Shown in pieces: positions 6,001 to 42,421 of a DNA stretch of 64,000 nucleotides. The translations under genes and the position numbers were made by a program. The notes beneath the pieces were generated by a model. It ran no database searches, was not told where the DNA came from, and saw nothing but the letters and a program-made list of their open reading frames with translations. This stretch comes from Bactericera cockerelli (taxonomy: Eukaryota > Arthropoda > Insecta > Hemiptera > Triozidae): assembly GCA_024516035.1 (NCBI GenBank), contig CM044958.1:43394436-43458435 (forward strand). The letters are read 5' to 3'. Numbering within the stretch: position 1 is the first letter of the stretch; each line of letters starts with the position of its first letter.

Positions 6001-9000
6001 CGTTCCCCATATGCTTCCATTTAGCAAATGAACCGGGCCCAACTTTATCTTCATGCATGATAATGCCCGCCCCCATACGGCAGGAGCTACTGTTGAGGTA
6101 TTACAAGCAGCGGGAATCAGAGTTCTCGGCTGGCTAGCGATAAGCCCAGACTTCAACCCTATTGAACATGCATGGGATTACCTTAAGAGGGAGATTAAAA
6201 CCCTAAAAGACCAGATCCTGACTCAAGATCAGCTCATGGAGGCAGTAACAGCTGCATGGAACAGGATTCCGGAAGAGCGCATCCATGTACTCATCCAAAG
6301 CATGCCAAGAAGACTCTAGTCATGTGTAACAGATCGTGGAGGTCACCCTCGGTACTAAGAAGCCGATAAATTTCAATTCCTTCTTGGTATGCTGTTGTGA
6401 TGGTTCAACGAGCGTCTTAACTTTTATTCTCAAGTTTGTTCTAAAATGACCATTTTCAAAAAATAAATAAAAATCTTGAATCTTTTTAATGAAAACTTGT
6501 TTGTTTTTATCTCAATAGTTAGAGAAGAATGTATTGGAGTAATTTCAACCTTTTATTTCATATTTAAACCTATACATTTGAAGTAGTAGGTCCGAATCTC
6601 TAAAAATACTTGTGGCCCTTATTTTGTTTTGCTTAGTGTAAGTTAATAGTGAGGAGACATTTCAGTCTATCTCACTTTATTATTATTATTATTATTAAGA
6701 TCTTTATTGGTTTATTGCATATGTACAATTGTACATAACACAAACAAGATACATATTTACAATTTTAATTGAGTAAGTAAAGACCCAAGGGCGAGGTTAG
6801 CTTTTTCTTCCACCTAACACCAATACTCATAAACTCTACTGTTTTGTAGTCACCGTGGCAGAGTGAGTTAACGCGCTAGGCATTGAACGCATGGTGACCT
6901 GGGTTCGATTCCCAGCGGGGCAGGAATTTTTCTGCTCTGTACTTGGATGTTCGGGGTCCACTCATACCTCGTGAGGAAAAATGAGTAGTTACTTGTACGA
7001 GTAACGAACAGTGGCGGCATCACCAGAGTAAAAAGAAATGAATGTAATAGAATTATTCGACAAAGTAAAGGAGGCTCTTAGTAATGCTGCGCTACCCACA
7101 AAAATTGTGAAGAGGCCTTGTGCTTCACCACAAATAAATTAATACATACAATGTTGTAATTTAAATTAATACATACACAAACAAGATACATATTTACCAT
7201 TTTAATTGACTAAGTAATGACCCAAGGGCGAGGTTAGCTTTTTCAAGAAGGAAAAAAAGAGAGAAATGTCCTACCTAAAAGGCAGGGTTATTGCCTATGG
7301 CAACCTCTTCCACCTAACCCTTATGTGTGATGTTTCTGACGTGTGAGCAGGGAATGAGGAGCGGCTCGCGTTCTCCGTGCTCTGGGAGCTGGACGCGGAG
7401 GCCCGCCAGGTGGCCCCGCCCACCTTCACCAAGTCCGTCATCCGGTCCCGCGCCGCCCTCACCTACGAGCAAGCGCAGCTCATCATAGACGACGCGAGCC
7501 AGACGGGCGCCATCGCGGTCAGCCTGCGGGGACTCAACCGGCTGGCCAAGGTGCTCAAGAGGCGGCGCCTCGACAACGGCGCTCTGGTGCTCGCCTCACC
7601 CGAGATTCGGTTCCACATCGACAGCGAGACACACGACCCCATCGAGGTGAGACACACGACCCTATCGAGGTGAGACACACGACCCTATCGAGGTGAGACA
7701 CACGACCCCATCGAGGTGAGACACACGACCCTATCGAGGTGAGACACACGACCCTATCGAGGTGAGACACACGACCCTATCGAGGTGAGACACACGACCC
7801 TATTGAGGTGAGACACACGACCCCATCGAGGTGAGACACACGACCCCATCGAGGTGAGACACACGACCCTATAGAGGTGAGACACACGACCCTATCGAGG
7901 TGAGATACACGACCCCATCGAGGTGAGACACACGACCCTATCGAGGTGAGACACACGACCCCATCGAGGTGAGGGCTCCTAAGTAAAGTATAATTATGTA
8001 TGACACACGACCCTATCGAGATAAGGGCTCCTAAGTAAAGTATAATTATGTATGACACACGACCCTATCGAGGTAAGGGCTCCTAAGTAAAGTATAATTA
8101 TGTATGACACACGACCCTATCGAGGTAAGGGCTCCCAAGTAAAGTATAATAATAATAATAATATCGCCTTATTTATACTGCCCGATTAGGACTATTAAAG
8201 TCCCATTATTCCAGCAGTAAGCTCAAGACATATTATTATGTGGTAAAAATCCCAATTGGGAGGATAACATGTCATGTCCCAGGTGGGTTTCGAACCCACG
8301 ACCTCTGGAGTCTTTGGATTCACAGAGTGCCGCCTTTACCACTGAGCTCCTAAGTAAAGTATAATTATGTATGACACACGACCCTATCGAGGTGAGGGCT
8401 CCTAAGTAAAGTATATATTATGTATGACACACGACCCTATCGAGGTGAGACACACGACCCTATCGAGGTGAGACACACGACCCTATCGAGGTGAGACACA
8501 CGACCCTATCGAGGTGAGACACACGACCCTATCGAGGTGAGACACACGACCCTATCGAGGTGAGACACACGACCCTATCGAGGTGAGACACACGACCCTA
8601 TCGAGGTGAGACACACGACCCTATCGAGGTGAGACACACGATCCTATCGAGGTGAGACACACGACCCCATCGAGGTGAGACACACGACCCTATCGAGGTG
8701 AGACACACGACCCTATCGAGGTGAGACACACGACCCTATCGAGGTGAGACACACGACCCTATCGAGGTGAGACAACGACCCTATCGAGGTGAGACACACG
8801 ACCCTATCGACAGCGAGACACACGACCCTATCGAGGTGAGACACACGACCCTAGCGAGGTAAGGGCTCCTAAGTAAAGTATAATTATGTATGACACACGA
8901 CCCTATCGAGGTAAGGGCTCCTAAGTAAAGTATAATATTATGTATGACACACGACCCCATCGAGGTAAGGGCTCCTAAGTAAAGTATAATTATGTATGAC

Positions 9001-10526
9001 ACACGACCCCATCGAGGTATGTCTGGCTGGGGGACGTTAAACAGGAAGAAGATCAGTGTCTCGCTAGAGGACCATAAACAGAAAACAGACTAGCCAACCC
9101 TTACAAGCCAGGCTAGCTTGCAGTTTCCTAACGGTTTAATGGCTTGTACAGAAAAGTCCAAGTCCTCATGATGGTTGATCGCACATAGAAATTTGTGGTT
9201 CAGGACGAGCCAACTTTGAAATAAAGTTGGCTGGAGACCATCACTCACCCCTCCAGCTGTAGCCAAGCTGGCTACAACAACAACAACAACCCTATTGAGG
9301 TGAGGGCTCCTAAGTACCTACTCCCAAAGTATATGTATGACAGTCGAACCTATATAATACTACATAGAAACCAATATAATAGGAGCGCGCGATTAGCTCA
9401 GTGGTTAAGCACTCGCTTGCCATGCCAACAAAAATTTGTATTCTTAATTTGGTTAAAATATTGTTTGTAAGGGATACCTTCCGGTGCGCTCGTGTTGACC
9501 CAGTACCTAAATGGGAAGTATTGTGTCACTTCTCGCCCATCAGAGGGGAGGCATACTACGGGATGGGCAGGCTACAACACAGACCACAAGCGTCTACAGT
9601 AGCTCCTCTTTCATGGCTACGAAATAAAATATAATGATCTTCAAACGATATAATATATTTCATTCAACGATTCGTCTTTCTTCAGTGTGCTCATTACTGA
9701 TGCCACATTCCCTCTTTGTACCGAAATAAAATAGGCTGTGAAACACTCTTCTTTAAAAAATATATATATCTATTTTTTTCTCTGTCTTTTCCCGCTTAGG
9801 CAGGGTCGACGTTGCTTCTCTATACTTCTCGGTCTTGTGCCTCATTTATTCTCACATATTTTTCTTTCATATCTTCTTCCACATTGTTTCTCTACGTCTT
9901 CTTAGGTGTTCCTTGTCCTCTGTATCTTGGCACCTGTATGTTACTTACTTTATTTCCCACGTATTCATTCATCTTCGCTCCTCTCTATATGTCCTAACCA
10001 TTGTCATCTTCTTTCCTGCATTTTCTTTGATATTTCAATTACCTTCACTTTTTCTCTGATGATATCGCTTCTAATTCTGTCCACCTTTGTCTTTCCACAC
10101 ATCCAACTCAACATCTCCATTTCAGTCACTTAAGTATTTTTCTGTTGTTAGCTGTATAAAAAATGATATAATTCTGTCGGTTTATGTTCAGTCAATTTTC
10201 CACGTGATTCTCCTCTTGACTTCTTTTCTACCTACATGTACATATATTTCTCAAAAAACATTAATGCCCTTCTTCGTGGCGCTCACTTTGAAATATTAAC
10301 ATGGAATAAGTAACATTGGTCTAGCGGTAGCATGTTCGACCTGCCCTCCAGGTGACAGGTTTGAATCCCGGCGGGCTCGGATTTTTTTCGGCTCTGTACT
10401 TTAAATGTCAGGGCTTACCCTAGCCTCGGCATTACGAGATTGATAATGTCAACGTCGACCTTGCTTGATCGGGATAGACACAGTAAAAGAAGAAATATTA
10501 GTTTTCTTATATTATATTGTTGAATC

Positions 10527-10560
<34 letters not shown>

Positions 10561-13500
10561 CGTAGAATAAGAAGGAATGTGCTCTTTTCTATCATCTCTG
10601 TGAAAATGAAGGAGAAATACCCCTTAAAAGTATATTTTTTTTCTCGATTTTAAAGTGGGGGAAGCATACTCATTAGCATGATAATAACACTCTTATATTT
10701 GCTTTCCTGAAAAGTCGATTTTCGACATTCCTGGTTCTTCTACTCCACCCATTCATTTGTTGAATTTATCCAAGGAAATTGCATAGAACATTCAACAACA
10801 CATAAAAATTGTATATATTATTAAGAGCTAGTCATCTGTGTTATTATGTCAGACTTTTTAGTGGGTAGCATCAACAATATAATATAGGAAAACTAATATT
10901 TCTTCTTTTACTGTGTCTTATCCCGCTCAAGCAAGTCGACGTTGTTCAACTTCATGGTCGAGGTTGGTTGGTTTTGGCACATTTTTACAGCTGGATGCCC
11001 TTTCTAACACCAACTGTCCCCCCGTCTCGCCTCCTAGGTGGTGGCCAAGCAGCTGCGCGACACCAACTCCATGGTGGAGGAGTTCATGCTCCTCGCCAAC
11101 ATCTCCGTGGCGGAGAAGATCCACCGCGAGTTCCCGGACAACGCGCTGCTGCGCCGCCACCCCGTGCCTCCGCCGGCCAACTTCGAGCCTCTGCTGCACG
11201 CGGCCCGGCGGCAAGGCTTCGAGCTCGCCGTGGCCAGCGGCAAGGAGTTGGCCGCCTCGCTGGACGCGGCCGTCAAGCCCGAGAACCCCTACTTCAACAC
11301 CATGCTCCGGATCATTGCCACGCGCTGCATGCTGCAGGTAAGTTAAATGATTTAGTTAGCCAGCGTCGATGGCATGTTGAATACACCGTTTCCCTCCAGA
11401 ACACCGAAGTTAAGCGACATCCAGCGAGGTTAAGACTTGTATGGGTGACCATTCAAATTCTAATTCTCGTGACGCTGGCTTTTCCCGGCCCCACTCAGGC
11501 TGGGTGAGGTCAATGTGAGTAGCAGGTTTGTGAGTTTCTCACACGATGGAGGGTAAAACCCCCGTCGTGATATGACCATGGCAGTTGAAAGCGACGTTAA
11601 AACCCCACTTAAAAAAAAAAAATGATTTAGACAGAGGCGCAATATATCTTCGTCCCTCTGGTGTATGAAACACTGGGGCCCTGGTCTGTCGAAACTAAAA
11701 AGTTCTTAAATGTTGTGGGTGACAATTTGATCCGTGCCACTGGCACTCAAAGTGCCAAAGAATTCTTGCTGCAGAGATTAACCATAGCGATTCAACGCGG
11801 CAATGCAGCCTGCATTCTTGGTACTCTACCACATGTCAGTGGCATGGACCATATATACAACCTGAAATAGATGTGATAGTGTGATAGTTCATTTTCCGTC
11901 CATTTAGACAGTGGTGTATGATTGAAATATTACCTAGCTAGAAAGTGAAAATAATACAAGTAACTGTGATGGTTAAGTAAATAATAATAATAGTAAAATT
12001 TTAATGGTGGAAATAATGATAACAACAATCATCATAGGCGATGATGTTGATGTTAATGGAAATTGATTATTTCATACAAAAAGAAATTATTTTATACAAA
12101 AAGAAATAGAAATATAAAGGATAGTAGTTATAATTTGCACAAAAACTAGAACAAGGCTGCATCCCACGACACAAGGACCATACTTCATAGGTGTGGCCCT
12201 TAGTGTGAGATGACGACAGCCAAAAGAAACTAGCATAAGTTCAATTAAAAATATTATGCATTCGTTTGTTTACTTTTGCAGTGTATGTCACGCGAAAATT
12301 CGCTCCTCAAATTTAATATTTTTTTGAAGTTTAAAAGCATTTTTTGATTGTTTCCTTTAACAAAAGTGCTAATTTAGACTTTCTCTTCCTTTTGAGTGCA
12401 TTTGTTCTTTGTGGGAAGTTCTTATTACACCTTTTTACTGTGTTTTTTATAATGAAAACTGAACTTTTTCCTGTGATAACAAGATGGTTGCCATAGAAAC
12501 CTTTCAACCCCTCTCCTCCTATCCATGATCAACTGAATATTTCTTGCTTCGTCTCACCCGCTTGAAATTTTCCAAAATTTCAGCCAGTTAATAAAAAAAT
12601 TATAATCACCACTTTGTAATTTTCTCCGTTTTCCCATTACCCACCATGACCTCCAGTAAACCTCTCTCTTTTTCTTCTGTTCTCAACGGCAATAGTCGAC
12701 GTAACTCTCCTTTCTTCCCGAAGAGCGCAGCTCCGTCCTCATTTAGCGCGTCTTTCTCCCGGGTGGTTCAAAGTAAAACGGTGAACGATTCTCTCCTGCT
12801 CCCCTTGGAATGCGCGTTCTATCTCCCTTATCATGAGTCCATTTCTCATGACAAATATTTTATCACTATTGGGGAAATGGTTGGCTTTCAAAATATTATT
12901 TATGGTGGAAAAAATGGACTAAGAATGGTAATGCACCTTGCGTCCCAACAGATAGTTGATGATTTTGTTTTGAAAAATGATACAATCCTGATTGATGACA
13001 AAGTGTTGCCGGTTAAAAAGCTTATAGATCCAGGTTTGGTGCTTTACCTACATAATACGGTTCCTCATCTACCAAATACAGTGATAGAAGAAGAGCTCAA
13101 AAAACACGTCCGACTCTTGTCAGAAATAAAGCTATCGAACTATGGTATGAAAGATCCTCGTCTGAGGCATGTACTAGCCTACAAGAGGCAAGTCCAGATT
13201 CCTTCGGAAGAAAAAAGCAAAGTTCCTATGCAAATAACGGTTACATGGAAAAATATTCCTTATTCTATTCCACTTCTATTTGATGCCCCCCGATGCTACA
13301 ATTGCGGTAAAGAAGGACACATTTCAAAAAATTGTTCTGAAACTACCAATACTCCTGCCCAAAAAAGGCTAGGTGACATCATGCTGTCGACATCTTCATC
13401 CCCCATGGTTGCCGCAGTTCCAACTGTTGACTTTGGTACTCCCCCTCCTGCCATCAGTACTGTTGAGTTAAGAACCTCAGTCCCGGAGGAAAATATTGCT

Positions 13501-16500
13501 ATCGTCTGTCCAACCGCTGATTCACATACGGAAATAGAAGATTCGGAATTTATGTCCCAAAGCTCTATCTCCAGCTCCAGCCTAGGTGAACCTCGTGAGA
13601 TTGAGCAAGATCTCATCCCAAAGTTCGCCATCCGCCGATCGTCATCCTCGCCGCTCCTCAATGAAGATAAGAAAACTGATTTCCCATCTCTCCCTTCCCC
13701 TCCTTCTGTCCTGAGTCAGGAAAACAAAATGAAAAGAAATCTATCCCCTGCTGAAAATACTACAGAGAAAAAAGTTAAAACTCACAACTCTTCTACAGAT
13801 CCCGAGATGACGGAAGGATTCAAATGTTTGGTTCAGAAAATATTAGTGGAAAATCAAGAATCCGCTTTCACCTGTGAAGATTTCTGCAGTCTCATGGCCA
13901 ACCTGAGGAGCTCCCAGAAAAAGCAGGAAATACTTCTCCAATCTGGTTTTCCTCTTGAGAACATAGAAAAAGTTCTGTCAGCTATTCTTACTTCCTCAGA
14001 TGTTACACCTAATATTAGGGCGCGCGTCACACGCTTGCTCAAATGCAATTTATTTGAGCAAATGGAAACTTAGTATCAATGTTAAACATACTATAATTTT
14101 TTTTTCTTCTTATTTTTACTTATTTACATTATCATGCCATTTACTATCGTTCCACTGTATTATGTATATTCTCACTTTTTTCGAGTGTGCAAACTTTTAA
14201 CCCTGTTTTTTAGCAGTCATCTGATGATTTTTCTATTAATTTATTATCTGTTATGTTGAAATTATTTATATTTACATTTCTTACATTTTTTATCTTATTT
14301 ATTATGAATAACTTTTCTCTTTTACAATGGAATGTTAATGGCTACTTCAAACGTCTCCCCCATATACAAAAGATGTTATGTGATAAAACTCCACTTGTAG
14401 CGTGTTTTCAAGAGACAAATTTCAAACCAAATTATCTACCTTCAATTTCAAACTACAACATCTTCCGGAAAGACCGTGACCCCACTGACGCTTTGTCTGC
14501 TAGTGGCGGAGTTGCTACTTTAATTCACAAAACAGTCCGATCTAAACAATGTATGATCATCTCAGACCTTGAAGTTGTTGTAGTAGAAATTTTGTTAAAT
14601 AAGAAAATTCAAATTTGTAACATATATTTACCATCTGACAGGAGATTTACTGCTCAAGATCTGGAGAACATTACAAACCAGCTCTCCCCCCCATTCATTA
14701 TACTTGGTGATTGGAACAGTCATCATATGTTGTGGGGTTCAACTCTCACTAACAGTAGAGGAAGAGAAATAGAAAAATGGATACAAAATAATAATATCTA
14801 TCTCTTAAATGATGGCAGTCATACCTATACCAGTATGTCGTATAATTCGACATCTGCTATTGATGTTACTTTCTGCTCGAATGACCTTAGTCTTTATCTC
14901 TTATGGAACGTAGATACGTACCTAAACGATTCTGATCATTTCCCCATACATGTGACTTCCCATCAGAGAGAAGATACAAACCAGTACTCTGATTTTTCCA
15001 AGTGGCACTATAACAGAGCGGACTGGGGAGGATTTGCGGCTCAACTACATCAAAAACATGAAAATCTGACACTAGATCCTGACACAAATAAGGCTGTAAA
15101 AGCTTTCACTGATGACATTATAGCAGCATGCGAAACACATATCCCAAAATCGAATCCTAAAAACTCGAAGCCGCGTATTCCCTGGTGGACGGAAGATTGC
15201 TACAAGGCCATCAAGGAAAAAAATAAATATTATAGAAAATACAAAAGAACTCAATTGTTGGAAGATTTTATTTTGTTCAAAAAATTTCGTGCAATTAGTC
15301 GAAAAACGGTTTGGCAAGCTAAGCAAGATTCATGGAGAAAATTTACTGGTTCAATTAACTTTGGCACATCCACTAAAGAAGCCTGGAATAAAGTTAAAAG
15401 AGTACTTGGTAAAAAGAAAGATCAAATTGGCATCCCTTCCCTAAAGATTGATTCGGGTTTTACTACCGATAAGAAAGAAATTTCCGATCTTCTTGTACAT
15501 AAATTTTATCAAAACTCCGACCTTACACAACATAATTCTGAGTTTCTTTTGAACAAAGAAAATTCAGAGAGATTTCCTTTTAACTTTGATAGGAGAAATG
15601 TTGGATCATATAATGCACCTATAACTCTAAAAGAAATTGAGAGAGTCCTGATTAAAAGGAAAGATACAGCACCAGGAAAAGATCAAATATCGTATGTGAT
15701 GCTCAAGAACCTCCCTTCATCTTCTTTGAAATTACTAAACAAATTATACAACCGTATCTGGTACTCCGGCGTTATACCACTCACCTGGAAAGAATTTATT
15801 TTATCCCCTATTCCAAAACCAAATAAGAATCCTGAACTTGCTGAGAACTACAGGCCTATCACCCTCGCTTCTTGCCTCTTCAAAATACTCGAGAAAATTA
15901 TAAATGATCGACTTTTTTGTACCCTGGACTCTCAAAACTTTTTTAACAAAGTTCAGTGTGGTTTCAGAAAGCTCCATAGTACTACTGACGCACTAGTTCA
16001 TCTCGAGACAAACATTCGAGATGCTTTTGCTAATCAAGAACATTGTGTGGCTGTGAGTCTTGACATCTTACGGGCGTATGAAACAACCTGGATTTATCGC
16101 ATTTTGTCCATATTAAAAAATAATAATATTCAAGGAAATATGCTATGTTTCATTAAAAACCTGCACGAAGAAAGAAAATTCCGAGTGCGAGTCGGCTCTG
16201 TACTATCAGATTTTAGAGAGCAAAAAAATGGCATATGTCAAGGCCTTTCCATCAGCTGTACTCTTTTTCTTATTGCCATAAATGATATTGCCGACAACAT
16301 TCATCCAAAAGTAGATACCTGTATTTTTGCGGACGACTGCACTCTATTTATGCGCTCAAAATACCTGTGCGAGATAGAATCATGTCTACAATTTTCACTT
16401 AACAATCTCTCTGAATGGTCAAACTCGTCTGGTTTCATGTTTTCCCCTCAAAAATGTCAAGCTATCCATTTCTGTAGAAAGCGGAAAGCTCACAATAATC

Positions 16501-18524: not shown

Positions 18525-18564
<40 letters not shown>

Positions 18565-21500
18565 AAGGACTTGATAATAATAATAATAGTTTATTTATTT
18601 ATTTTCTTTATAAATAAACATTTATACAAAGGTACTTCTCCTAAGCTTTGAAGAGCTTCTAAGAGCTGCACATGAAAGCTCTTGTTACGTGCTTTCAAGA
18701 TATTTAATCCTTCTCAAAGACCGCTTTTGAGAATTGAAGTGTCCAAGTTCACACTGGTTAAGTGTGATGCTGTCCAGATCATTCAGAGGACGGCTCAATC
18801 GGATTTCAAGGGTAAAATTGAGCTCAATCGGATTTCAAGGGTACCCTTGAGGGTCGATTTACTGGGATTTCAAGAAGACGTTATACTTTCGCACTGAAAA
18901 GACATAGAAACGTAAAATTTCGCACAGACATGCATTTTAACCATCCAAATTTATATAAGCAATTAAAAAAAAATTAAAACCTTAACGAATAGATGATAAT
19001 CCAACATTAAATAATTCAAACGTCTTGGGCGTCTTCCGCTATTTATATATCACCTAAAATTCCGTGCTGGTTCACTCAGTCAGCTTAGCCGAGTCGTTTA
19101 AGGCGCTTGCTAGCTGAGCATGTAAAGTTCAGAAGTCCTGAGTTCTAATCTCACTGCGAGCAAAGTTTTTCACAATTTTTTTTTTCTCCGATTGAGTTAA
19201 AATTTTTGTCTAAATTTCATACATGGTTAAAATTTGCTGTAATTTTTTGACCATATAATATCAAGCAACATTGAGCTAGTCTAGAATTTTGATGAAAACT
19301 TATTTTCGGCATAGAAGCTGCAGCTTTTGTTCAATCGAGCTGAAATGTTCAAGGTATGTTCCTTACTTGCTTGGCAATTAGTACTTACTACATTTATGTA
19401 TAAAATATATTTAAAATTGTATAGTGAACAAAACCCTTTGTGGGTATTTTAACGCACTCTTAACCAATTTTTTCATTGTTCTTTTTTTTTGTTGTTGTAC
19501 ATATTCAATACTGTGTCCACCATCTTTCCAAAGTCCCCCTCTCGCCCCTTAGGCCACATTTACTACATTTATGTATAAAATATATTTAAAATTGTATAGT
19601 GAACAAAACCCTTTATGGGTATTTTAACGCACTCTTAACCAATTATCCCCACCTTCAGCACAAGATTTTTTATCTTTTGAAGGTGGGTATACCCTCATTG
19701 TTTGTAGAAGATATTTGTGTAAAAAATAAATAAATGGAAATAAAACAAAAAAAAATTCATTGTTCTTCTTTTTTTGTTGTTGTACATATTCAATACTGTG
19801 TCCACCATGTTTCCAAAGTCCCCCTCTCGCCCCCCCTCAGGCTGTCTACTTCTCGAGCGGGCTCGTGCAGGAAGCAGACTTCCGCCACTACGGCCTCGCC
19901 TCGCCCATCTACACCCACTTCACCTCGCCCATCCGCCGCTACGCCGACATCATCGTGCACCGGCTCCTGGCGGCCTGCATCGGCGCCGGAGCCACCTACC
20001 CGGCGCTGCTAGACAAGAAGGCGACGGGCGCCCTGTGTCACAACCTCAACTATCGCAACCGCCAGGCCCAGTACGCGGGCCGAGCCTCGGTGGCTCTGCA
20101 CACCCATCTCTTCTTCAGGTAAAAAGCTCTGCACACCCATCTCTTCTTCAGGTAAAAAGCTCTGCACACCCATCTCTTCTTCAGGTAAAAAGCACTGCAC
20201 ACCCATCTCTTCTTCAGGTAAAAAGCTCTGCACACCCATCTCTTCTTCAGGTAAAAAGCTCTGCACACCCATCTCTTCTTCAGGTAAAAAGCTCTGCACA
20301 CCCATCTCTTCTTCAGGTAAAAAGCTGTGCACACCCATCTCTTCTTCAGGTAAAAAGCTCTGCACACCCATCTCTTCTTCAGGTAAAAAGCTCTGCACAC
20401 CCATCTCTTCTTCAGGTAAAAAGCTCTGCACACCCATCTCTTCTTCAGGTAAAAAGCTCTGCACACCCATGTCTTCTTCAGGTGGGCGACTCTTCTAAGT
20501 CGTATTTTTCTTTCTAACTAAAAAAAAATTTCCTGGTTAGGTTTTTTCCAAATATTTCCATTTTATTCCAAGGTCATTCGTGAAAGAAAAATGCGTTTGG
20601 TTACTTTTAAAGATAAACAATGGACTTAAACTATAAAAGAACTGGAAGCAAGAATTTTCTACTTCCACTTTGGTTAACTTTGGAAGTGGAAATTTTTCCT
20701 CTTCCAAAAGAAAAATGACTTGCTTCCAGTTTGGTTCATTTTATTCCCGTTTGGTTAACTTTGGTTAGAAAGAAAAATACGGCATTTGAATGGATTAGGG
20801 CCAAAAAGCTTTCTGACTTTCATAATCCTCTAATCTCTCTTTCAACTGCTTAACAACACAGACACTATCATTGGTTTTTAAAGAAAGATTTGGGTATTTT
20901 GAGAGTGCTTTTTGGAATAAGACCCTGATAAATAAATAAAGCGGAAGTCTATCCTCTACTATATTATATTGTTTGCTTACTTTGCTTGAAAAAATAAACA
21001 CTTTAAAAACTACAGAGATTTAGTTCCTGAGAAAGTATTGTGATCGATTATTCAGACTATTGAGGTTGTAATGTTTAGACTTATCATAGCGTATATTTGT
21101 ATAGTACATTGGATGTATGAAATCGGATTGCTTGTCACTCTCTGTTGTACAGTCGACACTGGATATAATAGAAACCTGAACGATTTCCAGGTCAAATGTA
21201 CGGAAAAAGAACCTCTTTATAAGAGAAACCTGGAAGAAAAAGAGAGCAGTCCCTTTTCAGTTCTCTTATATCCAGGTGGGGGGCTTCACACACCAGAATT
21301 GGTGTGTGAAGAATACCACATTATGTATGTCCCAGCAGTCATCTCTGCCATTGAAGAAAATCAATGGACTGGTCCTCCAGGTTGGGGGTTGATCATGGGG
21401 CTAACTACCTCATATCACAAAAAACTACAGTTGCGAATCCTCATAACCCGCCTCGGAATTCTGGACTGTCAAATTTGGATCTGAACTGGAATACTAACAT

Positions 21501-24500
21501 GGACACGATTTTAGGATCACGGAATAAACATGACAAATCGGATTTTAAACTTGCAACGTGGAATGTAAGAACCCTACTCCAACCTGGGAAAATGGAAGAA
21601 GTAGCCTCAGAAATGTTGAAACAAAAAATTGATATAATGGCTATTCAAGAAATAAGATGGCATGGTCAGGGCAAAATCTAAAAAAGAAATTACAGCTTTA
21701 TATACAGTGGACCCAGCAAACGAACAGGACAACTTGGAACTGGATTTATCATCAACAACAAAGTCAAAGCAAGCATCATGGATTATAAATACATAAATGA
21801 AAGGATTTGTAAAATGAGAATCAAAGGAAAATTTCGAAATACCACAATAATCTCAGCACATGCACCCACTGAAGAGAAAACAGAAGAAGAAAAAGAAACA
21901 TTTTATGATCAACTAAGTAAGGAAGTATCTTTAACTCAAAAATATGACATGCTGCTTATACTTGGCGACTTTAACGCTAAAATAGGATACAATGAAGATC
22001 AGATTGATGTAGCAGGAAAATACACATTACATGAATATAACAATAAAAATGGAGATTACCTTGTAAATTTTGCAGCACAACACGGACTATACATTAAGAG
22101 TACATCATTCCAACACAAAAAAATACACCTGGGGGCTTGGAAAATACCTGGAAGAGAAGAAGTAAACCAGATAGATCATGTTATGGTGACAAAAAGACAC
22201 TTTACTTCTATCATTGATGTTAGGGCACATAGAGGTCCAAATTGTGATTCTGATCACTATATGGTGAAAACCACTATCAGAGATAAGATGGCCAAAATAA
22301 ATACAATCGCCAGAATAAAACAATGGGATACACAGAAATTAAAAGAAGATAAAGAATGCCAAAGCAACTACCAAAGAATATTAGAAGAAAAATTGAAAGA
22401 AATCAAGGACAACGAACCATTAGAAGACAAATGGGAGAAGATCAAAGAAACAATTACACTCTCGGCACAAGAAACAATAAAAGAAAAGGAAATCAGGAGA
22501 AATAGTGGATGGTTTGACGAGGAGTGTAAAAATCTTATTGAACTCAAAAACTATGCGAGGAAGAAAATGTTGAATAGGAATACCAGAAGAAATAGTGAAC
22601 AATACAAGAACTTACGTAGAAGATGTAAACAATTAATGAAAAGAAAAAAGAAAGAAAGTCTTGATCACGAAATTCAAGAGATAGAAAATTTAAATGAACT
22701 AGGAGAGACCAGAAAGTTTTACGCTGCCACCAAGAGACTAACTAAAGATTTTCAACCTAATATTACAGGGTGCAAAAGTAGAAACGGAGCAATCATTACA
22801 GATGAAAGAGAAACACTTAAAATATGGGAACAGTATTTCGATAACCTCCTAAACATGCATCAAGTAAATGAAGAAGCATCATATGATGCAACCCAACAAA
22901 GAGACGAGGGACCAGACGGAAACAATATTGAAGAGGACAACACACCAACTAGGAAAGAGATCCAAGATGCAATAAAAACAATCAAGAACAATAAAGCTCT
23001 TGGAGAGGATACCATAGTAGGTGAGCTTATAAAATATGGAGGACTGGCACTAGAATCAGCAATACTTGATTTAATCAAAGACATATGGAGAACAGAAACA
23101 ATGCCAAGAAGTTGGAATATAGGAATAATTTGCCCAATACACAAAAAAGGTGATAAATCAGACTGTGCCAACTACAGAGGAATTACATTATTAAACACCA
23201 CTTATAAGATCCTCACAACCATACTCAATCAAAGAATCAAAGAAATATCCAACAAAAAGATCGGAGAATATCAATGTGGATTTAGGGAATCACGCGGCAC
23301 AGCTGATCAATTGTTCATCGTTCGGCAAATCATGGAAAAGTTTTATGAACACAATACAGGGTGGGGCAAAAGTCTGGAAACCCCTGAATAACTTTCGAAA
23401 TGCTTCTTTGGTAAAATTAAAAATTTGTAAGGTAAACCGGGCTAATAAGACCTTCTTTTAGAGTGGGGTCGATTTTTGTTACCGGCCCCCATGTCGGGGC
23501 CAGGGGGGCCAACTTCATTTTTTTAAATACGAACCCCCAGCTTGCGATACATTTTTGGAAAGGTCTTCAAATAAGAAATACATTGGTGCAAATTTTATTT
23601 TTTCAATATTAACTGTTTGCAAATGGCGTCCAACTTTGTGTATGCAGTAAAGTCTGGAAACCCCTGAATATCTTTTGAAAGGGATTTCTCAGTAAATTTA
23701 AAATTGTGCACGGTAAGTCGGGGTAATTAGACCTTTCCAAAAATGTATCTCAAGGTGGGGTTTCGTATTTTAAGAAATGAAATTGGCCTCCCTGGCCCCG
23801 ACATGGGGGCCGGTAAAAAAAATCGGTCCCATTCTAATATAAGGTCTTATTACCAAGGATTACCGTACACAATTTTAAATTTACTGAGAAAGCCCTTTCG
23901 AAAGATATTCAGGGGTTTCCAGACTTTACTGCATACACTAAGTTGGACGCCATTTGCAAACAGTTAATAATAAAAATATAAAATTTGCACCAATGTATTT
24001 CTTATTTAAAGACCTTTTCAAAAATGTATCGCAAGGTGGGGGTTCGTATTTAAAAAAATGAAGTTGGCCACCCTGGCCCCAACATGGGGGCCGGTAACAA
24101 AAATCGACCCCACTCTAAAAGAAGGTCTTATTAGCCCGGTTTACCGTACAAAATTTTAATTTTACCGAAGAAGCCATTCGAAAGTTATTCAGGGGTTTCC
24201 AGACTTTTGCCCCACCCTGTATAGACTTATATATACTCGCCATAGATTTCAAACAAGCCTTTGATAGCGTAAAACGTGACAAACTAAAACAGTCAATGCA
24301 GGACATGGAGATTCCCCTAAAACTCATAAATATGGCTATGATGACTATGGAAAAATCTTGTGCTAGAGTAAGAATTGATGGGAAACTAAGTGATAGTTTT
24401 AACATCACATCTGGAGTTAAACAAGGGGATAGTCTTTCAAGTACTCTCTTTATAATCCTACTACACAAAGCAATTAAAGAACTAGATCAGAGAGGTACCA

Positions 24501-27283: not shown

Positions 27284-27684
27284 GCAAGGATCTGGTTACG
27301 AAAGTAAGAGGAACACAGCCCGCATGATTAGAAATGCCTCCTTTGCAGGTCGTACCGGACATCGAACTCGAGATCGGTTGTAAAATCGATTTTTTAAAAA
27401 ATTGTATAAAAGTACCTACACTTCTGTGTTGTAAAATGTAAGCACAAAAGCAATGACTGGTACTTGTTGCTGTATCTGGGTAGTAGTGGGTAGTTATTAT
27501 CAAGGATTAGCTGTAGGAACTCGAAATTTTACTTTCTTGATGAATTTGTTACAAAGGCCAGTTAGATTATCTACCCAAATGTCGATCCCTTAGTTGGTGC
27601 TTGGATTTTGTCGTGCAGAGTGCATCTTAATCATGAGGGTCTGTTCGCATTACTTTAACTTTGTAAAGTGTTTAAAATTTGGAT

Positions 27685-27690
27685 AATAAA
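27685..27690 (+). terminator. Candidate Dis3 polyadenylation signal
   Basis: AATAAA 402 bp after the Dis3 stop, the clearest hexamer before the converging annexin gene. In the second copy it lies at 42855-42860, beyond a Helitron inserted in the 3'UTR. Confidence 0.45.
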
Positions 27691-28443
27691 AAGTTTTGAT
27701 AAATACTTTTATAAGGTAATGCAGTTCTTATTCGAAAAAATATTTTTATTTTGTACATGAAATCTTAAGTATAAAGTAGAACTACCGATATAAATAAATT
27801 GATTAATATTAATTTATTCTGAGAGCATGGAAAATTAATAAATATAGCATAGGAAAAAAGAGAATAAAAATTTAGGGAGTAAAAATTATCTTGTGAATTA
27901 CATTTGATTATTTATCGTCCAGAATATAGCTTTTTAAGTGACAGGTACAGTATGGGATTTGAAAGTACGTAAGTTAATAGGTTTTCTTCATCACTTTGAA
28001 ATGTTATCTTATCGATATTTTCATTATCAAGATAATTTCTTGATATGACCATGCAGTTGAAAGCAACGATGTACCCAAAATTAAAAAAAAAAAACTTAAA
28101 TAGTTCAAATCTATTTTTTTAGACTATTAGTCAAATCTATTAGTCTATTATTTATGTACAAGCATTATCATCATAAAAAAGCTTGGCCAATTTTAGATTT
28201 AAACAATTAATTAACTTAAAAAAGAAATTCATTAATAATAATTATGATGGTAACAGGTAACCACATTGGTTGAGATGAATACATACTTGTACAAACCCCT
28301 AATTGGGAAGATTAAAGGACCCTAGTAAACTGGAGCAGAATAGAGTTACTGAGATATTATATACAATGATGGAGAGTTTTGTATACATATACTTCACCCC
28401 CTCCATATGAAGGAACAGCTTATAAATAATGATAAGCACCAAT

Positions 28444-31400
28444 TTATCCCACCAAAGCCAGAAGCAATCTCTTGTAATCCCCAGAGCAGTCATCCTGTAA
28501 CAGAAAAAGAATATTATAAGTGGTCCATTATTCCCAAAGAACCTCGCACAAACCTTAAGGCAAAAGTGGTTTCTGTACAGGTGTGATTTTTTATGTGCAT
28601 AATTTGGACAAAAGTTTTCATATTGCAAAAACGACTAAAGAAGTTCAATATTATTTCGTAGTTGGTTATTTTGGAATATAAAATAAAAGTTTGACTTGTG
28701 TACGAGAGAATAATAATAATAATATCGCCTTATTTATACTGTCCAATTCAGCAGTATTATTATTTTATATTATTTTATAAACAACACAAAAATTATAAAT
28801 TAAAATACAATATAATAGAAGAAAAAAATAAATAAATATATACATAATATGTGTCCTAACTAAAGGGCGGGGTTATTGCCTTTGGCAATCTGTTCCACCC
28901 AACCCTTGTGGTCAAAATCCCGAATAGGATGGTAACTTGTCATGTCCCGGCTGGATTTTGAACCCGCGACCTCTGAATTACCAGTCAGACGCCTTGACCA
29001 CTGAGCTACCGGGACAGACATAGTATGTTCTTGACAATCCATTTTGACATATTGTGACTTTACAAACTATACCGCATACTTTTTTTTTATAATGGAAGGC
29101 AGGAAAAAATGTTTCAAAGACACCCAGATCCATCCTAACCTGGGGTGTGGGATTTCCACCCACTAAAAACCCACATTCTCTAAAAGCTAACCCCACTTGA
29201 AAAATATCATTACTTCAAGTGCGGCGCTATAGGGCACCTACTGATTTCGTTGTAGTGCCCTCCCATCTTTCTCTTTTATAACTATTATCTCTCTCACCAT
29301 TTTCTCTATACTGTACACTCCCAATTCTCTTTATACCGCATACTGAACTAAATTATTACTCTACCTACTTCTATTTTCCCCCAAATTACCTTGATGTACT
29401 CCTCCAAGGTTTTGCCGTAGAGTTTCAAGAAGTTCTGCTTAATGTCCCCCAGATCAATCTCAGATCTCGTCACTATGATTCGGATGAGAGTTTTGTCGTC
29501 CGTGCCAATCCCTGCCATAGCGTCCTTCAGTCTCCTGGCGAGATAGGAGCTCTTGTCCTTCACACATTGCACTGAAACAGGGAAGTCCATTGTTATTATG
29601 TAATACTTTATTGGAAAACTACATAAGTACATATTGCGACACTGGACATGAAATACAAGTAATAGAATTCAATAGAGTGCATAAAAATCTAGAATCATAG
29701 ATAGGATGACTATGTTTTATACATTTCTATAAATGTCGAATAAACAATAAATTATAAATTCTAAAAAAAAAAATTTCTATGTAGTGCATCAAGGGGCTAG
29801 GTTAATGTTTTGGCTTTCTCTTCCACCGAACCCCAAATATGCTTTACATTTCTCTCTAATTCCTACGAAGTTACCTAGAAATAGCACATTGGTTGAAAAA
29901 AAAAGATACTTCTACATAACGTTCCTAAAGTTAGATAGCATCTCCGAGTCAACCATAGGGCCTTTCCTATCCGATCTGATCGCACGATCGTGGTTTTTCG
30001 AGTGAGAATATTTCGCTCAAATGCCATTCAACCCTGACCTGAAAATCAGATCATTCTGATCTCTACTTGTAGTAAACTTGTGGTAAGGTAGTGGCTTCAA
30101 AAGGGTTAATTAAATAGTTCGCCATAGTTTCTCTTGGTTTGCTCAGGTTTAGTGCTTTATAGCATAAGGTTATGTGAGTAATGAAGGGATTGGTCCATCA
30201 TTATATTACCAATAGACAGGAATCCATCCTTGACTCCCCCCGACATCTCCCCCTTGATAGCCTCCTCTATGTCGTGTCCTGCCAGGTCTTCGTACTCCTT
30301 GAATGTCCTCCTCAGCTGCTGGTAGGAGCGAGTTACTAGGATGGAGTTGAATGTCGACTCATCTGTGCCCCATTTCTTCACACCTAGCAATGAGATGATT
30401 CTGATGATTAGTTGATAGTTTTGTTGTAATTTGAGCTAATGCTAATAAAATAAATAAATTTTATTTATTTTATACTAGCCGTTTGTCCGTGCTTTGCAAC
30501 GGGACTAAATTTCAAATTTACTAAGGCATGGCCGTACTGCTGGACAGTAATGCCTTTTTGAACTTTTTATAATTTTTCTGGACAAAGCGATAATGGTTTT
30601 GGGGGGGTCAATTCTAAGACATTTTTCGCTATCTCTTACCGTTTTGGCTAAACAACTCCGGACAAACAAACATAGGTAGTCCTTTTTTCTGTTTTATATA
30701 TAGAGATAAACTTTGTTTACCGCTCTATGTACGAGTATATAAGTTATTATATTGTTGTATACCGTCAGTTTGATTCTTTTTTGCTGCCATATCGTTGAAA
30801 TTTTGAAAAATATTAGTGAAATGAACACCATAGGGGTAGGTCATTAGTTTCGATAACAGTTTTACTTTCACTGGTTGTCACACGTACATCATGCTTGTTC
30901 TCAGAATCGTGACAGGACATGACCTTTCGTTGTAAATTTGTGAAAAAATATGCTGTAAGATTGACAGTGGACTTGAAGCTTGTATAGATGCATTATAGAA
31001 GTTTAACAGTTATTATATTTGTGTTAATCACCATCACTCTTCTTCTTCACACAATCACAACTTCTCAATTTTCTATTTATAGTGATTAAAATAGAGAGGT
31101 TAGTTGATGGCATGGATATTCAGAACTATCACTTGCTGATGAGAGCAAATAAGCTCGAAACAGCTGTCCAGATATATGTTCTGATATTTATGTACATCTA
31201 ATACAACTTCTCAGCAATTTCCTTTTAAACTGATTATACTGACTCAAACTCGCTTTACAAAATCCTTGCTAAACTAAAGGGACTCGAACCACCGACCTCC
31301 AGATTACAAGACCGCCGCCTTATCGATCAAGTCACTGATGTCGGTAAGAAGTTCAACAGCTTTTTTTTTTTTTTTCTTTTCAAAATGAGTGTTTCACAGC

Positions 31401-34400
31401 ATTTTTTATTTCGTAGCCATGAAACAGGAGCTACTGTAGACGCTTTTGGTCTGTGTTGTAGCCTACCCATCCCGTAGTATGCCTCTCCTTGATGGGCGAG
31501 AAGTGACACAATACTTCCCATTTAGGTGCTGGGTCAACACGAGCGCACCGGAAGGTATCCCTTACAAACAATTGTAACCAAATTAAGAATACAAATTTTT
31601 GTCGGCACGGGGGATCGAACCCGGGACATTCCGCATGGCAAGCGAGTGCTTAACCACTGAGCTAATCGTGCGCTCATAGTTTCGTGCTTTCAGTAGTTTA
31701 CCTGCGTCCAGTAAAGCCTGTGCGTCTGCCCGCGCTACTTGGGCGTCCACCTCCACACTTTCGTCTCTGTTGGCCTGAAATTTAAAAAATCTGGTGTAAA
31801 CATCACACGACTTTCCTTATCATATTACGAATGGGGACAGGACCAAAAGCCACTGGTGACTCAAAGGTAACGGTTAGCTAAAAATGAAAGCCAAATTCGT
31901 AATCAGCACCAATCATTGGATTTGATATGTCACAATGGCAATCTAAGATGAATAATAAAAAAGTTAGTCAAAGCGGGTCCCCCCCAAAATACCGGTAAAT
32001 TGGGCCGAGGTCCAAAAAGTTCAAGATATCAAAAAAATGATCAGAAGAGACCCCTATTATTTTTTTAATCTAAGAAAATGTTGTTCTCTAACTTTTTTTG
32101 TATCTTTAACCAATTCATAGAAGCGGTGCTTGCGGCCAATATTTGCGGCCCTGCATTTTGCGGCCGATTTCAACCAAAAGTTTCGTGGTTCGTCTGGTGT
32201 ATAAAATTGATTTGCATACCAAATTTCAAGTCTCTAGCTCTTACCGTTCTTGAGATATCCTGTTCACAGACAGACAGACGCACGGACCAATGACTGAAAA
32301 CAACTTTTTTGGTATCCTGAAGCTATGATTTGTCCAGAAATGTGAAAAACTGGGTAGGTCAAATTTTCGACGAATACAATACCTACTCTCCTTATTATAG
32401 GATAAGGAAAGTAAAAAGAAACTTTATTCCTTCATATTTCCTGAAATAGGAATACATTATCATTCATTCTAGACCTCACTTGCAATCTACATATTTTTGG
32501 GGGGGGACAAGCCATGTTGATCGTATTGCTCATCAACTTGAACAGGTTTCATGACTCAGTATGAATTGACATCTTACGTATGATGTGTAACTCTCAGAAT
32601 GATTGTTATTACTGTCGATTGTTAAATACTATCAGATTGACCGACTTATGAAAAAAGTCTTTTTTATTACATATTTGATTAAATCAGTATAAACAAAAAA
32701 AGTGAGAAGTTGTACTAGATGTACATGAATATCAGAACATACCTGGACAGCTGTTTCGAGCTTATTTGCTCTCATCAGCAGGTAATGGTTCTGAATATCC
32801 AATTATCCATGCCATCAACTAACCTCTCTATTTTAATCAGTATAGGTAAACAGAAAAGTGAGAAGTTGTACTAGATTGTACTAGAATAAAATTCTATCGT
32901 CATAATGTTTTTATTATTATTATTTGTGTTGATCATAATTGAATTACTTAAACTCGCTTCACTAAATATTTGCTTGATTTGGGACTTGAAACACCGACCT
33001 CCGATTACAAGTCAACATTAATGCCCAAATTATGAAACAGGATTTGTTAATCTTTGTAAACATTATCCCTAACTTTCACCTTGACAACAACTGTTGTCAG
33101 GGTTTGCGTGGAAGAGATTGCCACAGGCAATAACCCCGCCCTTTAGGTAGGACATTTCTCTCTTTTTTTTCCTTCTTGTATATTTGTTTAATCTTTTTGT
33201 TTTAGTTTATATTTCATTGTGTTCTACTGTATATATTTTTTGTTCTACCTAATAAAGCTTTAAAAAAAAAAAAACTGTATAGATCTTATTCAAGCCGGGC
33301 TTTGTAGCTGTATTCTGTGGCCAGGCCTTCGTGGCGGAAAATCTTATTTTAGAATACCTATCGGTCATCTGATAAAATGTAAGGGTCGGCTTAAATTTAC
33401 CAATCCTGTTTAATAATACGGCCTTAAAAAGCTTTACCTGGGACAAGGAAACCAGAAGACGTTTGAAGTGTCCCGAAGTGTCACCTTTGATGTCTTTCTC
33501 CAAACTAGTTTTGTATGCTGAAATTAATAAAATGAAATTTACTGTGAAGCTATAAATTACATGAGTATATCTGACGGGTCAATAAGGTAATTTGATAGTT
33601 ACGATAACTAGTTAGAATAATTTATTAGAGTACCTTATCTCTTCTAGTAGTATGATGTGTCCTTGTGAGAGGTATAGATAGCAACATGAGCAATGGAAAA
33701 GAAAATTTGTTGTAAATAATGGAATGTTGTTTGCATGATGACTGCTCTACAGCAGATTCGTGCATCCAGGCAAATACAGAAAAATGTTTCCCTTTACATT
33801 CTTCTTTCCTTTGTTAACTGACCTGTTTGTAGACTTCCAGGAGAAACTCCTCACAATTAACACTGCGACCTAATGAGACCACCCAACAATATTTTTGTTT
33901 ATGCCGAATATTTTTTTCGAAAGGTTTTTATTTCTTTTAGTCATATTTATTTATTACTTTTTACAATCTGATTTATTTTTGGAAAATTCTATAAAAAAGT
34001 TTGGGTAATAGAAAGTCGTGTGATGTTCACACCAGTTAATCTTGTTTAAACTCAATTTAGATACAAAGTAGGATCAATTTAGATAGGAATATTCTATTTG
34101 CGTAATTGCAACATTAATTGTTGCGTGCAAACGGAATTAAAAAAAAAAAAAAAAAAAAAAAAAACCGTCTGTCCCCCTCTCCTCTCTTACCATTCTCATA
34201 GACCTGGGTGATAATCTCCCCTCCCCCTCTCTTACCATTCTCATAGACCTGGGTGATGGTCTCCCCCTCCTCTCTTACCATTCTCATAGACCTGGGTGAT
34301 GGTGCGGATACCGAAGTTGCTCAGTGTTGTGAGGATCTCCACCAGAGCCTTCTCGTCGGTGCCTATGCCGGAGATGGCTTTGTGCAGCTCCTTGGCGTAC

Positions 34401-34483
34401 AGGTCGGGTAGGGGCGTCATGAGAGCCACCACCGCGTCCTCGAAGTTCCCGCTCAGCTCACTCTTCAGTTCCCGGATGAGATC
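28444..34483 (-). CDS. AnxB9: Annexin exons 8-3, copy 1 (duplicate of 43615-50708)
   Basis: complement of 34279-34483, 33438-33517, 31702-31774, 30210-30383, 29390-29571 and 28444-28494 (TAA stop). All phases match those of the copy 2 exons described at 43615-59419. Exons 1 and 2 are not in this copy because a 100-N gap follows exon 3. Intron 6 is 638 bp here against 1694 bp in copy 2, which carries a Helitron. I infer this is the other haplotype of the same gene, not a second annexin. Confidence 0.9.
28715..29017 (-). mobile_element. SINE-C with rearranged interior
   Basis: The left end ATCGCCTTATTTATACTGTC and the right-end head CCACTGAGCTACCGGGACA are both present. The middle holds unrelated AT-rich sequence and a retro-tail hairpin block (GGTTATTGCCTTTGGCAATC). 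Second copy at 43884-44188. Confidence 0.65.
30475..30706 (-). mobile_element. Short non-autonomous Helitron (232 bp)
   Basis: On the - strand it starts TCTCTATATATAAAACAGAA and ends in a hairpin (CCGTT...AACGG) followed by CTAG, inserted between A (30474) and T (30707). It is related to 50921-51139. Second copy at 46703-46934. Confidence 0.82.
31056..31213 (+). ncRNA. Hammerhead ribozyme motif in a short tandem-unit repeat
   Basis: The core CTGATGA (31136-31142), stem II GAGC/GCTC around AAATAA, GAAA (31157-31160), stem III CAG/CTG and GTC give a type I hammerhead with predicted cleavage after 31168. A distal stem I pairs TCAGAAC (31120-31126) with GTTCTGA (31178-31184). The segment is bounded by two copies of ACAACTTCTCA about 146 bp apart, so it looks like a 1-plus-partial unit. 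Stem I next to the core is partly mismatched. Second copy at about 47284-47441. Confidence 0.75.
31221..31345 (-). mobile_element. SINE-F (tRNA-derived)
   Basis: The - strand head TGACTTGATCGATAAGGCGG and GGTGGTTCGAGTCCC, with the body AAGCGAGTTTGAGTCAGTAT. Same family as 51786-51905 and 56522-56662. Confidence 0.6.
31361..31674 (-). mobile_element. Full-length SINE-A
   Basis: On the - strand: head AGCGCACGATTAGCTCAGTG, B box GGTTCGATCCCC, body TTGACCCAGCACCTAAATGG, end TTTCATGGCTACGAAATAAA and an A-rich tail. It lies in annexin intron 5 in the sense orientation. Second copy at about 47589-47903. Confidence 0.85.
31810..32412. mobile_element. Possible TIR element in annexin intron 4
   Basis: Perfect 12-bp inverted ends ACTTTCCTTATC (31810-31821) and GATAAGGAAAGT (32401-32412). 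No clear target duplication. The GTGTGATGT-like sequence next to such ends recurs at 34015 and 57535, so the family boundary may be longer. Confidence 0.4.
32701..32870 (-). ncRNA. Hammerhead ribozyme motif, opposite orientation
   Basis: On the - strand: CTGATGA (32778-32772), GAGC-AAATAA-GCTC, GAAA, CAGCTGTC, with cleavage predicted between 32746 and 32745. Stem I is better formed than in the 31136 copy: CCTG/CAGG next to the core, an internal loop, then TCAGAAC/GTTCTGA. Flanked by GAGAAGTTGTACTAGAT copies about 156 bp apart. It is in the sense orientation in annexin intron 4. Second copy at about 48928-49098. Confidence 0.8.
33105..33274 (+). mobile_element. Retro-element 3' tail with hairpin and poly(A)
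   Basis: ATTGCCACAGGCAATAACCC forms a hairpin. Then come CCCTTTAGGTAGGACATTT, a T-rich segment, CTAATAAAGCTTT and poly(A). It is the most complete member of a tail family seen at 7278, 28870, 50800 and 55400. Confidence 0.55.
34189..34310 (-). repeat. Annexin exon 3 splice donor triplicated
   Basis: On the - strand ATCACCCAGGTCTATGAGAA then TG|GTAAGAGAGG occurs three times, with exon ends at 34279, 34236 and 34191 (spacing 43 and 45 bp). The first follows the coding exon; the other two lie in the intron. The copy 2 triplet ends at 50504, 50461 and 50416. Confidence 0.93.
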
Positions 34484-34573
34484 CTGTAGGAAGAGAACGG
34501 CTTAGCTCACCTAACCTGGTTGTAGGGTTTCCAGTGAAACCCTTACAACTAACACTGCGACCTATTATTATTA

Positions 34574-34673
34574 NNNNNNNNNNNNNNNNNNNNNNNNNNN
34601 NNNNNNNNNNNNNNNNNNNNNNNNNNNNNNNNNNNNNNNNNNNNNNNNNNNNNNNNNNNNNNNNNNNNNNNNN
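34574..34673. other. Assembly gap of 100 N
   Basis: Exactly 100 N, the conventional size for a gap of unknown length. It separates the end of one copy of the 15-kb segment from the start of the other. Confidence 0.99.
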
Positions 34674-34750
34674 CATTGTTCTTTTTTTTTTGTACATATT
34701 CAATACTGTGTCCACCATGTTTCCAAAGTCCCCCTCTCGCCCCCCCTCAG

Positions 34751-42198: not shown

Positions 42199-42421
42199 GC
42201 AAGGATCTGGTTACGAAAGTAAGAGGAACACAGCCCGCATGATTAGAAATGCCTCCTTTGCAGGTCGTACCGGACATCGAACTCGAGATCGGTTGTAAAA
42301 TCGATTTTTTAAAAAATTGTATAAAAGTACCTACACTTCTGTGTTGTAAAATGTAAGCACAAAAGCAATGACTGGTACTTGTTGCTGTATCTGGGTAGTA
42401 GTGGGTAGTTATTATCAAGGA

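Follow-up and report, generated by a model that had tools for sequence, protein, structure and literature searches.

Donor-Spanning Tandem Arrays in Dis3, Annexin, and Other Genes of the Psyllid Bactericera cockerelli

Tandem Arrays at Exon Ends of Dis3 and Annexin

In the genome of the psyllid Bactericera cockerelli, a stretch of 64,000 nucleotides (hereafter the window; C4:43394436-43458435, contig CM044958.1 of assembly GCA_024516035.1, which consists of 565,017,811 bases in 1032 contigs) contains exons a–f of Dis3/RRP44, its 3′ half, on the plus strand and exons 2–8 of an annexin B9-like gene on the minus strand. Three tandem arrays spanning a 5′ splice site (donor) are found in these genes, at Dis3 exon b, Dis3 exon d, and annexin exon 3 (Table 1). 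An earlier note on this DNA had described arrays of about 40, 12, and 3 copies at these three places, each with a unit crossing the exon/intron junction. Tandem Repeats Finder (TRF) and exon mapping bear this out, and the donor copies number 40 in array b (GAGGT, counted up to 9300), 12 in array d (CAGGT), and 3 in the annexin array. The accompanying statement that no unit extends more than about 20 bases into the intron has to be corrected, because a 52-bp unit in array b takes in 33 intronic nt.

The junction of exon b is fixed by an ungapped protein alignment to human DIS3 and two psyllid DIS3 proteins. The 23-bp unit of array b, GAGACACACGACCCTATCGAG|GT, is repeated from the 3′ end of this exon and is made of 21 exonic and 2 intronic nt; the corresponding parts are 26 and 7 nt in array d, and 22 and 21 nt in the annexin array. 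The 52-bp unit, the second one of array b (19 + 33 nt), is headed by the identical exon b end. Because the exonic parts of the units encode conserved protein, the exon is the source of the repeats. The units are unrelated in sequence and in length, and the donor is their sole common element. The inferred joints show microhomology of 3 bp (23-bp unit), 4 bp (52-bp unit), and 1 bp (array d).

Array b has a complicated interior. In addition to a SINE-like (short interspersed element) insert, it harbors a 267-bp insert at 9019-9285 that has no other copies in the window, a unit at 8789-8835 that re-imports extra upstream sequence of exon b, and an outlying, diverged copy of the 52-bp unit. Because of the inserts, the diverged outer copy, and the re-entrant exon piece, array b is regarded as an evolving structure and not as the product of a single event. 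The second copies of array d and the annexin array are not counted as extra events, because the duplicated block in which they lie looks like two haplotypes (see below).

Table 1. Features of the window (positions are those of the 64,000-nucleotide stretch).
Feature	Position	Strand	Remarks
Dis3 exon b	7351..7646	+	Exonic part of the repeat: final 21 nt (19 in the 52-bp unit)
Array b	7626..9019	+	TRF; 23-bp and 52-bp units; real donor 7646/7647
SINE-like insert in array b	8151..8345		90% copies at 3332-3139 and 26756-26949
Older, diverged 52-bp unit	9287..9350	+	Beyond the insert 9019-9285
Dis3 exon c, no array	11038..11337	+	GC content at third codon positions (GC3) 0.96; best donor of the window (9/9); useful negative
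Dis3 exon d	19841..20118	+	Intact frame into exon e
Array d	20093..20483	+	TRF; 33-bp unit, 11.8 copies; real donor 20118/20119
Annexin exon 3	34279..34483	-	Exon mapping
Annexin exon 3 array	34174..34300	-	TRF; 43-45-bp unit, 3 donor copies
100-N gap between two block copies	34574..34673		Separates 19763-34504 and 34676-50729
Second copy of array d	35003..35393	+	Letter-identical; in duplicated block
Second copy of annexin array	50399..50525	-	Letter-identical; in duplicated block

Reading Frames and the Choice of Donor

When the first donor of each array is used, the reading frame is open throughout, over 476 codons in the Dis3 part and 314 codons in the annexin part. A premature stop follows from every later donor tested (the second to sixth and the last of both arrays b and d, and both of the annexin array), so that the arrays are harmless only with the upstream-most donor in use. 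Both Dis3 array junctions are passed without an insert by the two psyllid DIS3 proteins, and the donor copies in the arrays keep 6-7 of the nine consensus matches. Judging from these frames, the upstream-most donor is probably the one used, and the extra copies would then be plain intron.

Arrays and Splice Sites in the Window

The earlier note had argued that minisatellites seeded at random would not be expected to center on a donor three times in one window. The argument was examined with 11 non-redundant TRF arrays (unit of at least 15 bp; repeats found only in the second block copy excluded), 11 donors, and 13 acceptors (3′ splice sites): 3 of the 11 arrays lie over a donor and none over an acceptor. 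Random placement gives P = 0.005 when entire arrays are considered (at least three in 212 of 47,843 rigid shifts) and P = 3e-5 for the seed unit; these values are post hoc, because the window was picked for the pattern, and the comparison of donors with acceptors in the window gives a Fisher P of 0.08. Four further Dis3 exons are found within the 30 kb upstream of the window, a stretch in which there is no array of any kind and one other part of the gene was not found; the extended locus has arrays at 3 of 15 donors.

The published screen for exon stuttering, a phenomenon known from the chicken (see below), was also applied to 13 exons and 11 introns of the window on the plus strand, using blastn-short hits of at least 20 nt and more than 42.1 bits. 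It marks 3 of the 11 introns, all by proximal hits only (hits above 42.1 bits: 1/28, 11/11, and 2/2). No distal hit was obtained in the window, and none in one shuffle. The sources of the copies end at the last base of the exon in all three exons, at base 296 of 296 in exon b, 278 of 278 in exon d, and 205 of 205 in annexin exon 3. On its 50.9-Mb contig, the window starts at 43.4 Mb, and other donor cases are on contigs C1, C3, C8, and C11 (29-65 Mb).

Splice Sites of 88 Conserved Exons

A scan of every annotated donor, with acceptors and shuffled intron positions as comparison, had been proposed, and a small form of it was carried out. Exons matched by PF00118 (68 hits) and PF00225 (85 hits) were chosen regardless of repeats; likely haplotype duplicates, last exons, domain ends, and some others were left out, and 48 + 40 stretches, corresponding to 88 exons in 23 genes, made up the sample. 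A site was scored as recurrent if the 20-mer centered on it is repeated within 110 bp with a score of at least 16/20. By the script, 7/88 donors, 2/88 acceptors, 38/704 intron positions, and 71/1330 random positions recur, while none of the 88 exon middles does (P = 0.016 vs introns).

On reading, five donor cases (5/88) are left: L050, a CCT exon, and L085, L087, L088, and L112, which are kinesin exons. In the other two, L040 and L090, a wrong GT had been chosen, and the true donors score 11/20 and 14/20, below 16. In L045, L074, and L090, the arrays begin with the first bases of the intron and include no exonic copy; these were not counted, and inclusion of them would raise the donors to 8/88 by a looser rule, whereas the background of 1.5% given below applies to the stricter one.

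At random and intron positions, each copy in an array adds to the count, whereas a donor is a single ancestral site; a donor excess is visible only after collapse of each array to one unit. In 14 random loci, such a collapsed background amounts to 2024/134,650 positions, or 1.5% (bootstrap 1.0-2.05%). The 5/88 donors exceed this background with P = 0.011 (P = 0.035 against the upper bootstrap bound), and the 7/88 before reading with P = 0.0004; the 2/88 acceptors do not (P = 0.38). When introns beside the sampled exons are taken as collapsed background (0.5%, with arrays reaching the exon side dropped), P is 0.0001 for donors and 0.08 for acceptors. Counting once per gene, 4/23 genes are affected vs 1.28 expected (P = 0.035).

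There are more complicated cases in the sample. In one kinesin gene (L087-L090; C1:63234161-63240267), exon-spanning arrays are found at two of the four sampled donors, an array starts at another one, and a tandem copy crosses an acceptor. Stuttering may thus cluster in particular genes, but the figure for clustering (some gene with 3/6, P = 0.038) included L090 and is suggestive only. The 52-bp unit of L087 includes the end of an exon encoding what we take to be the start of the kinesin P-loop. In L112 (C11:8013534-8014107), a 97-bp tandem copy of a kinesin exon end in the intron is followed by a piece from the middle of the exon. In L067 (C5:13183362-13183960), the start of a CCT exon is present twice in tandem together with its acceptor, 88 bp apart, showing that stuttering also occurs at 3′ splice sites.

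Donor Motifs in Tandem Across the Genome

A second, genome-wide measure is the motif triplet, in which a splice-site motif occurs three times, with the pattern read backwards as control. Triplets of the donor motif AGGTRAG at a spacing of 19-49 number 9069 + 10562 = 19,631 vs 2320 + 1946 = 4,266 for the backward pattern, a 4.6-fold excess, although the single motif is no commoner than its reverse (42 vs 52 in 200 kb). Triplets of the acceptor motif TTTCAGR number 577 + 916 = 1,493 vs 847 + 909 = 1,756 (0.85), and the single motif occurs 95 times in 200 kb vs 61 for RGACTTT. Among the matches listed (about 100 each, grouped by eye), the donor places are 7 arrays within 4.6 Mb of contig C1 and the acceptor places are 20 arrays within 46 Mb. 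The flanks of six of the seven donor arrays were read: one array (L026) follows a PCI-domain exon (Pfam E 1.7e-13), another (L025) follows an AREL1-like HECT exon (PDB match AREL1, E 2e-5), and two related loci follow one shared exon-like sequence.

Tandem arrays cover 5-6% of random positions in 14 random 10-kb loci (L009-L022) and 1.7% of the 60 kb flanking the window; the host genome is rich in minisatellites, but unevenly so. In 200 kb, 44 TRF arrays are found, one of which has AGGTRAG in its unit and follows an exon-like open reading frame (ORF) in the random locus L017; this ORF has no Pfam match.

Similarity to Known Systems

Arrays of this general kind have been described in vertebrates. 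In the chicken, exon stuttering affects 236 introns in 115 genes, 190 on dot chromosomes; in more than 90%, the source is no farther than 1 base from the border of the exon; units are tens of bases in length with up to 44 copies, a link to GC-rich coding sequence is given, and purely intronic stuttering is found alongside the exon-derived kind (PMC12954441, 2026). The anatomy is the same as in the window, and the earlier note, which saw in the pattern a candidate for an undescribed phenomenon, went too far in this. In the psyllid as in the chicken, the lateral part of a coding exon has spread with its splice site, as tandem copies, into the adjoining intron, and the coding exon itself is intact. 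Unlike in the chicken, the host is an insect, the window is AT-rich (GC 0.38), and the contigs are large and not dot chromosomes. Chicken copies carry either the donor or the acceptor, with no bias mentioned in the sections consulted, whereas a donor excess is suggested in the psyllid. The chicken arrays vary extensively in length between individuals; in the psyllid, the comparison covers the two haplotype-like copies of array d and of the annexin array in one assembly, which are identical.

Single loci of similar structure are known in human. Intron 7 of the factor VII gene contains a variable number of 37-bp repeats, the first of which holds the real 5′ splice site, and splicing normally takes place at the most upstream 5′ splice site alone (PMC6627357); splicing is reported for this one locus, whereas in the psyllid the use of donors is deduced from frames. 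In CBS, a 31-bp variable number tandem repeat (VNTR) lies across the exon 13-intron 13 border (PMC1395315), like the psyllid arrays, but it is a single polymorphic locus. Internal tandem repeats with minisatellite units averaging 30 bp alter exon-intron boundaries in human genes of recent segmental duplications (PMC2812944), where they are described as forming novel introns, unlike the psyllid case.

In the Rogers model, an intron is gained by tandem duplication of an AGGT-containing exon (PMC4974935). The tandem duplication carrying a donor is a common point, and the fission-yeast 24-bp repeats cited there look alike, but the new intron of that model lies between the copies whereas the psyllid acceptors are far beyond the arrays. 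Such AGGT intron gain was rejected for the psyllid arrays: array b ends by ~9350 and exon c starts at 11038, and likewise for array d and the annexin array. The minisatellites of the earthworm metallothionein gene lie within an intron, not across a donor, and stwintrons are unrelated to the psyllid arrays. No printed insect case was found in a limited literature search, in which stuttering terms led to the chicken work only. While the general kind is already known from chicken stuttering, human factor VII, and CBS, novelty seems to lie in the insect host and in the probable donor bias.

Possible Origin of the Arrays

The pattern is real and recurrent, and is found in several unrelated genes across the genome. 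We consider it probable, with some reserve, that the arrays are donor-anchored minisatellites, or “exon stuttering,” in a minisatellite-rich psyllid genome. A stretch of ~20-100 bp straddling an exon end would be duplicated in direct tandem; in array b, this would have involved 3-4 bp of microhomology. The duplication would be tolerated because the first copy retains the exon, the frame, and the donor, and the rest would be spliced out as intron, while selection would remove duplications inside exons. The copies would then grow by slippage or unequal exchange, as the unit variants, the nested 23/52-bp units, and the re-entrant exon piece suggest, and later acquire transposons. Seeding at donors at about four times the rate of random sequence (5/88 vs 1.5%) is likely but not settled; acceptors, at 2/88, are indistinguishable from background, and a preference of donors over acceptors may exist, resting mainly on the motif counts. 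As a first guess, tolerance and local proneness of some genes explain most of the pattern, without a dedicated donor-targeting machine. Tolerance accounts for the scarcity in exons; an excess over introns requires something more. Slower loss of detectability, in that the exonic copy is unable to drift, could account for up to about two-fold by our rough estimate, and the excess beyond it would be a seeding bias, either local or donor-specific.

Several observations weigh against such anchoring and in part speak for a simpler course, in which minisatellites, covering 5-6% of positions, fall across splice sites by chance and only the exonic ones are removed, with no preference for donors. Without collapse, donors do not differ from introns (P = 0.33 for 7/88 and 0.81 for 5/88) or from random positions, so that the raw half of the small scan lends no support to the earlier note and only its collapsed half does; the collapse itself depends on a rough estimate of the period, and it yields unequal backgrounds for random loci (1.5%) and for introns next to the sampled exons (0.5%). 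Two acceptors, L067 and L089, have genuine exon-spanning copies, and a contrast of 5 donors to 2 acceptors gives P = 0.44. Two of the five strict donor cases are in one kinesin gene. A coarser test of position, made with the 48 CCT exons, places 3/48 donors (one with a wrong GT) and 2/48 acceptors in arrays, and arrays within 25 bp of the hit ends are found three times on the donor side and three times on the acceptor side. Triplets are counted per match, so large arrays weigh more; two of the six motif arrays read (L027 and L028) have no coding sign upstream, and the joint of array d has only 1 bp of microhomology. The 44 arrays in 200 kb and the empty exon middles (0/88) also fit chance and filtering. 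Against it stand the collapsed donor excess (about four times background, P = 0.011), the 4.6-fold excess of donor-motif triplets that acceptor triplets do not share, and the array coverage of only 1.7% around the window, and we regard it as a serious but rather unlikely explanation. The earlier note had gone to the opposite side, proposing a process that repeatedly duplicates exon-end DNA in this lineage; recurrence is upheld by the cases beyond the window and the collapsed excess, and enrichment at donors in part, as acceptors are hit too. A lineage-wide process acting far more on 5′ than on 3′ splice sites, by which several per cent of introns begin with a private donor array, appears doubtful to us. 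Still more improbable is mutation targeted to donors by putative co-transcriptional R-loops, U1-associated breaks at 5′ splice sites, or slippage that the donor motif promotes. The triplet excess of the donor motif alone, the units of the window sharing nothing except the donor, and the three sample arrays starting at the first intron bases (L045, L074, and L090) would suit it, but there is no array at exon c, which is GC-rich and has the window's best donor, several cases in one kinesin gene point to regional causes, and acceptor cases exist.

Another possible driver is GC content, as proposed for the chicken, where GC-biased conversion and recombination would destabilize GC-rich exons and leave arrays at their borders. 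The array exons b, d, and annexin exon 3 occupy ranks 2 to 4 of 11 in GC3 (0.88-0.96 in Dis3 b–d). Relative to two psyllids, amino-acid replacements specific to the window change codon GC 20 times up and 0 down in Dis3 b–d, and 3 up and 4 down in e–f, while private changes are 2 up and 5 down in D. citri DIS3 and 6 up and 7 down in that of C. melanoneura. At the 27 window-specific sites in b–d, the relative P0123 has the psyllid state at 17 and the window state at 2. Requiring an outgroup majority leaves only 6 up and 0 down in b–d, and 1 up in f. In the 88-exon sample, GC content is higher in the eight exons whose donor is touched by an array than in the others (P = 0.016), but the strict five are not different (P = 0.14). 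In 50-bp bins, the introns beside b–d are mostly of 0.2-0.54 GC, the exceptions being the 50 bp that precede exons c and d; such mostly AT-rich flanks do not support conversion tracts broad enough to take in introns. Exon c, the highest in GC3, is devoid of an array. On balance, we consider a GC-driven origin to be unlikely. A function of the arrays, for example decoy donors that lower or time splicing of Dis3 and annexin through nonsense-mediated decay, would agree with the premature stop after every later donor tested and with the retained consensus matches; since homogenization preserves copies anyway, the unit sequences and lengths are unrelated, and the pattern is common to unrelated genes, it is very improbable. 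An assembly artefact, which the likely false duplication across the 100-N gap might bring to mind, is hardly credible: array d and the annexin array are identical in both block copies, against random assembly error, array b holds inserted elements, and the same anatomy is found in unrelated genes.

Genes and Assembly around the Arrays

The annexin closest to the window protein is from the psyllid Cacopsylla melanoneura (96%), and the top two DIS3 matches come from Diaphorina citri (87%) and C. melanoneura (84%). The window annexin pairs with one C. melanoneura protein, and D. citri and two further sequences form a separate group; this grouping was not used for placing the host species.

The block at 19763-34504 recurs at 34676-50729 with 99.7-99.8% identity and with indels, on either side of the 100-N gap. 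Most simply, this ~15-kb duplication looks like two uncollapsed haplotypes, that is, a likely false duplication, which would yield false duplicate exons of Dis3 and annexin. About 1 kb at 44921-45975 is unique to the second block copy, probably a large haplotype difference inside an annexin intron; it includes a TG-rich microsatellite of 400 bp and a tandem repeat of 186 bp. A near-identical second copy of annexin exon 2 (54458-54637 in the window) lies ~22 kb farther, at C4 ~43470795-43470977, and is perhaps another haplotype duplicate.

In the intron 3′ of Dis3 exon c, about 20 bases from the exon, a 5S rRNA match (52 bits) is found at 11359-11480, perhaps a 5S-derived SINE or a pseudogene. 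Dis3 introns also contain, at 5300-6320, 14214-18005, and 21682-24904, what we take to be transposase-like sequence with stops and long reverse-transcriptase-like ORFs.

Implications

For annotation, gene finders may face dozens of near-perfect decoy donors in such introns. For the origin of minisatellites, which becomes directly testable here, the comparison of donors with acceptors separates mutational bias from tolerance. If true, at about 6% of introns, the pattern would mean that exon stuttering is not peculiar to the dot chromosomes of birds and some gerbil genes, and that a genome with large chromosomes offers a way to study its cause.

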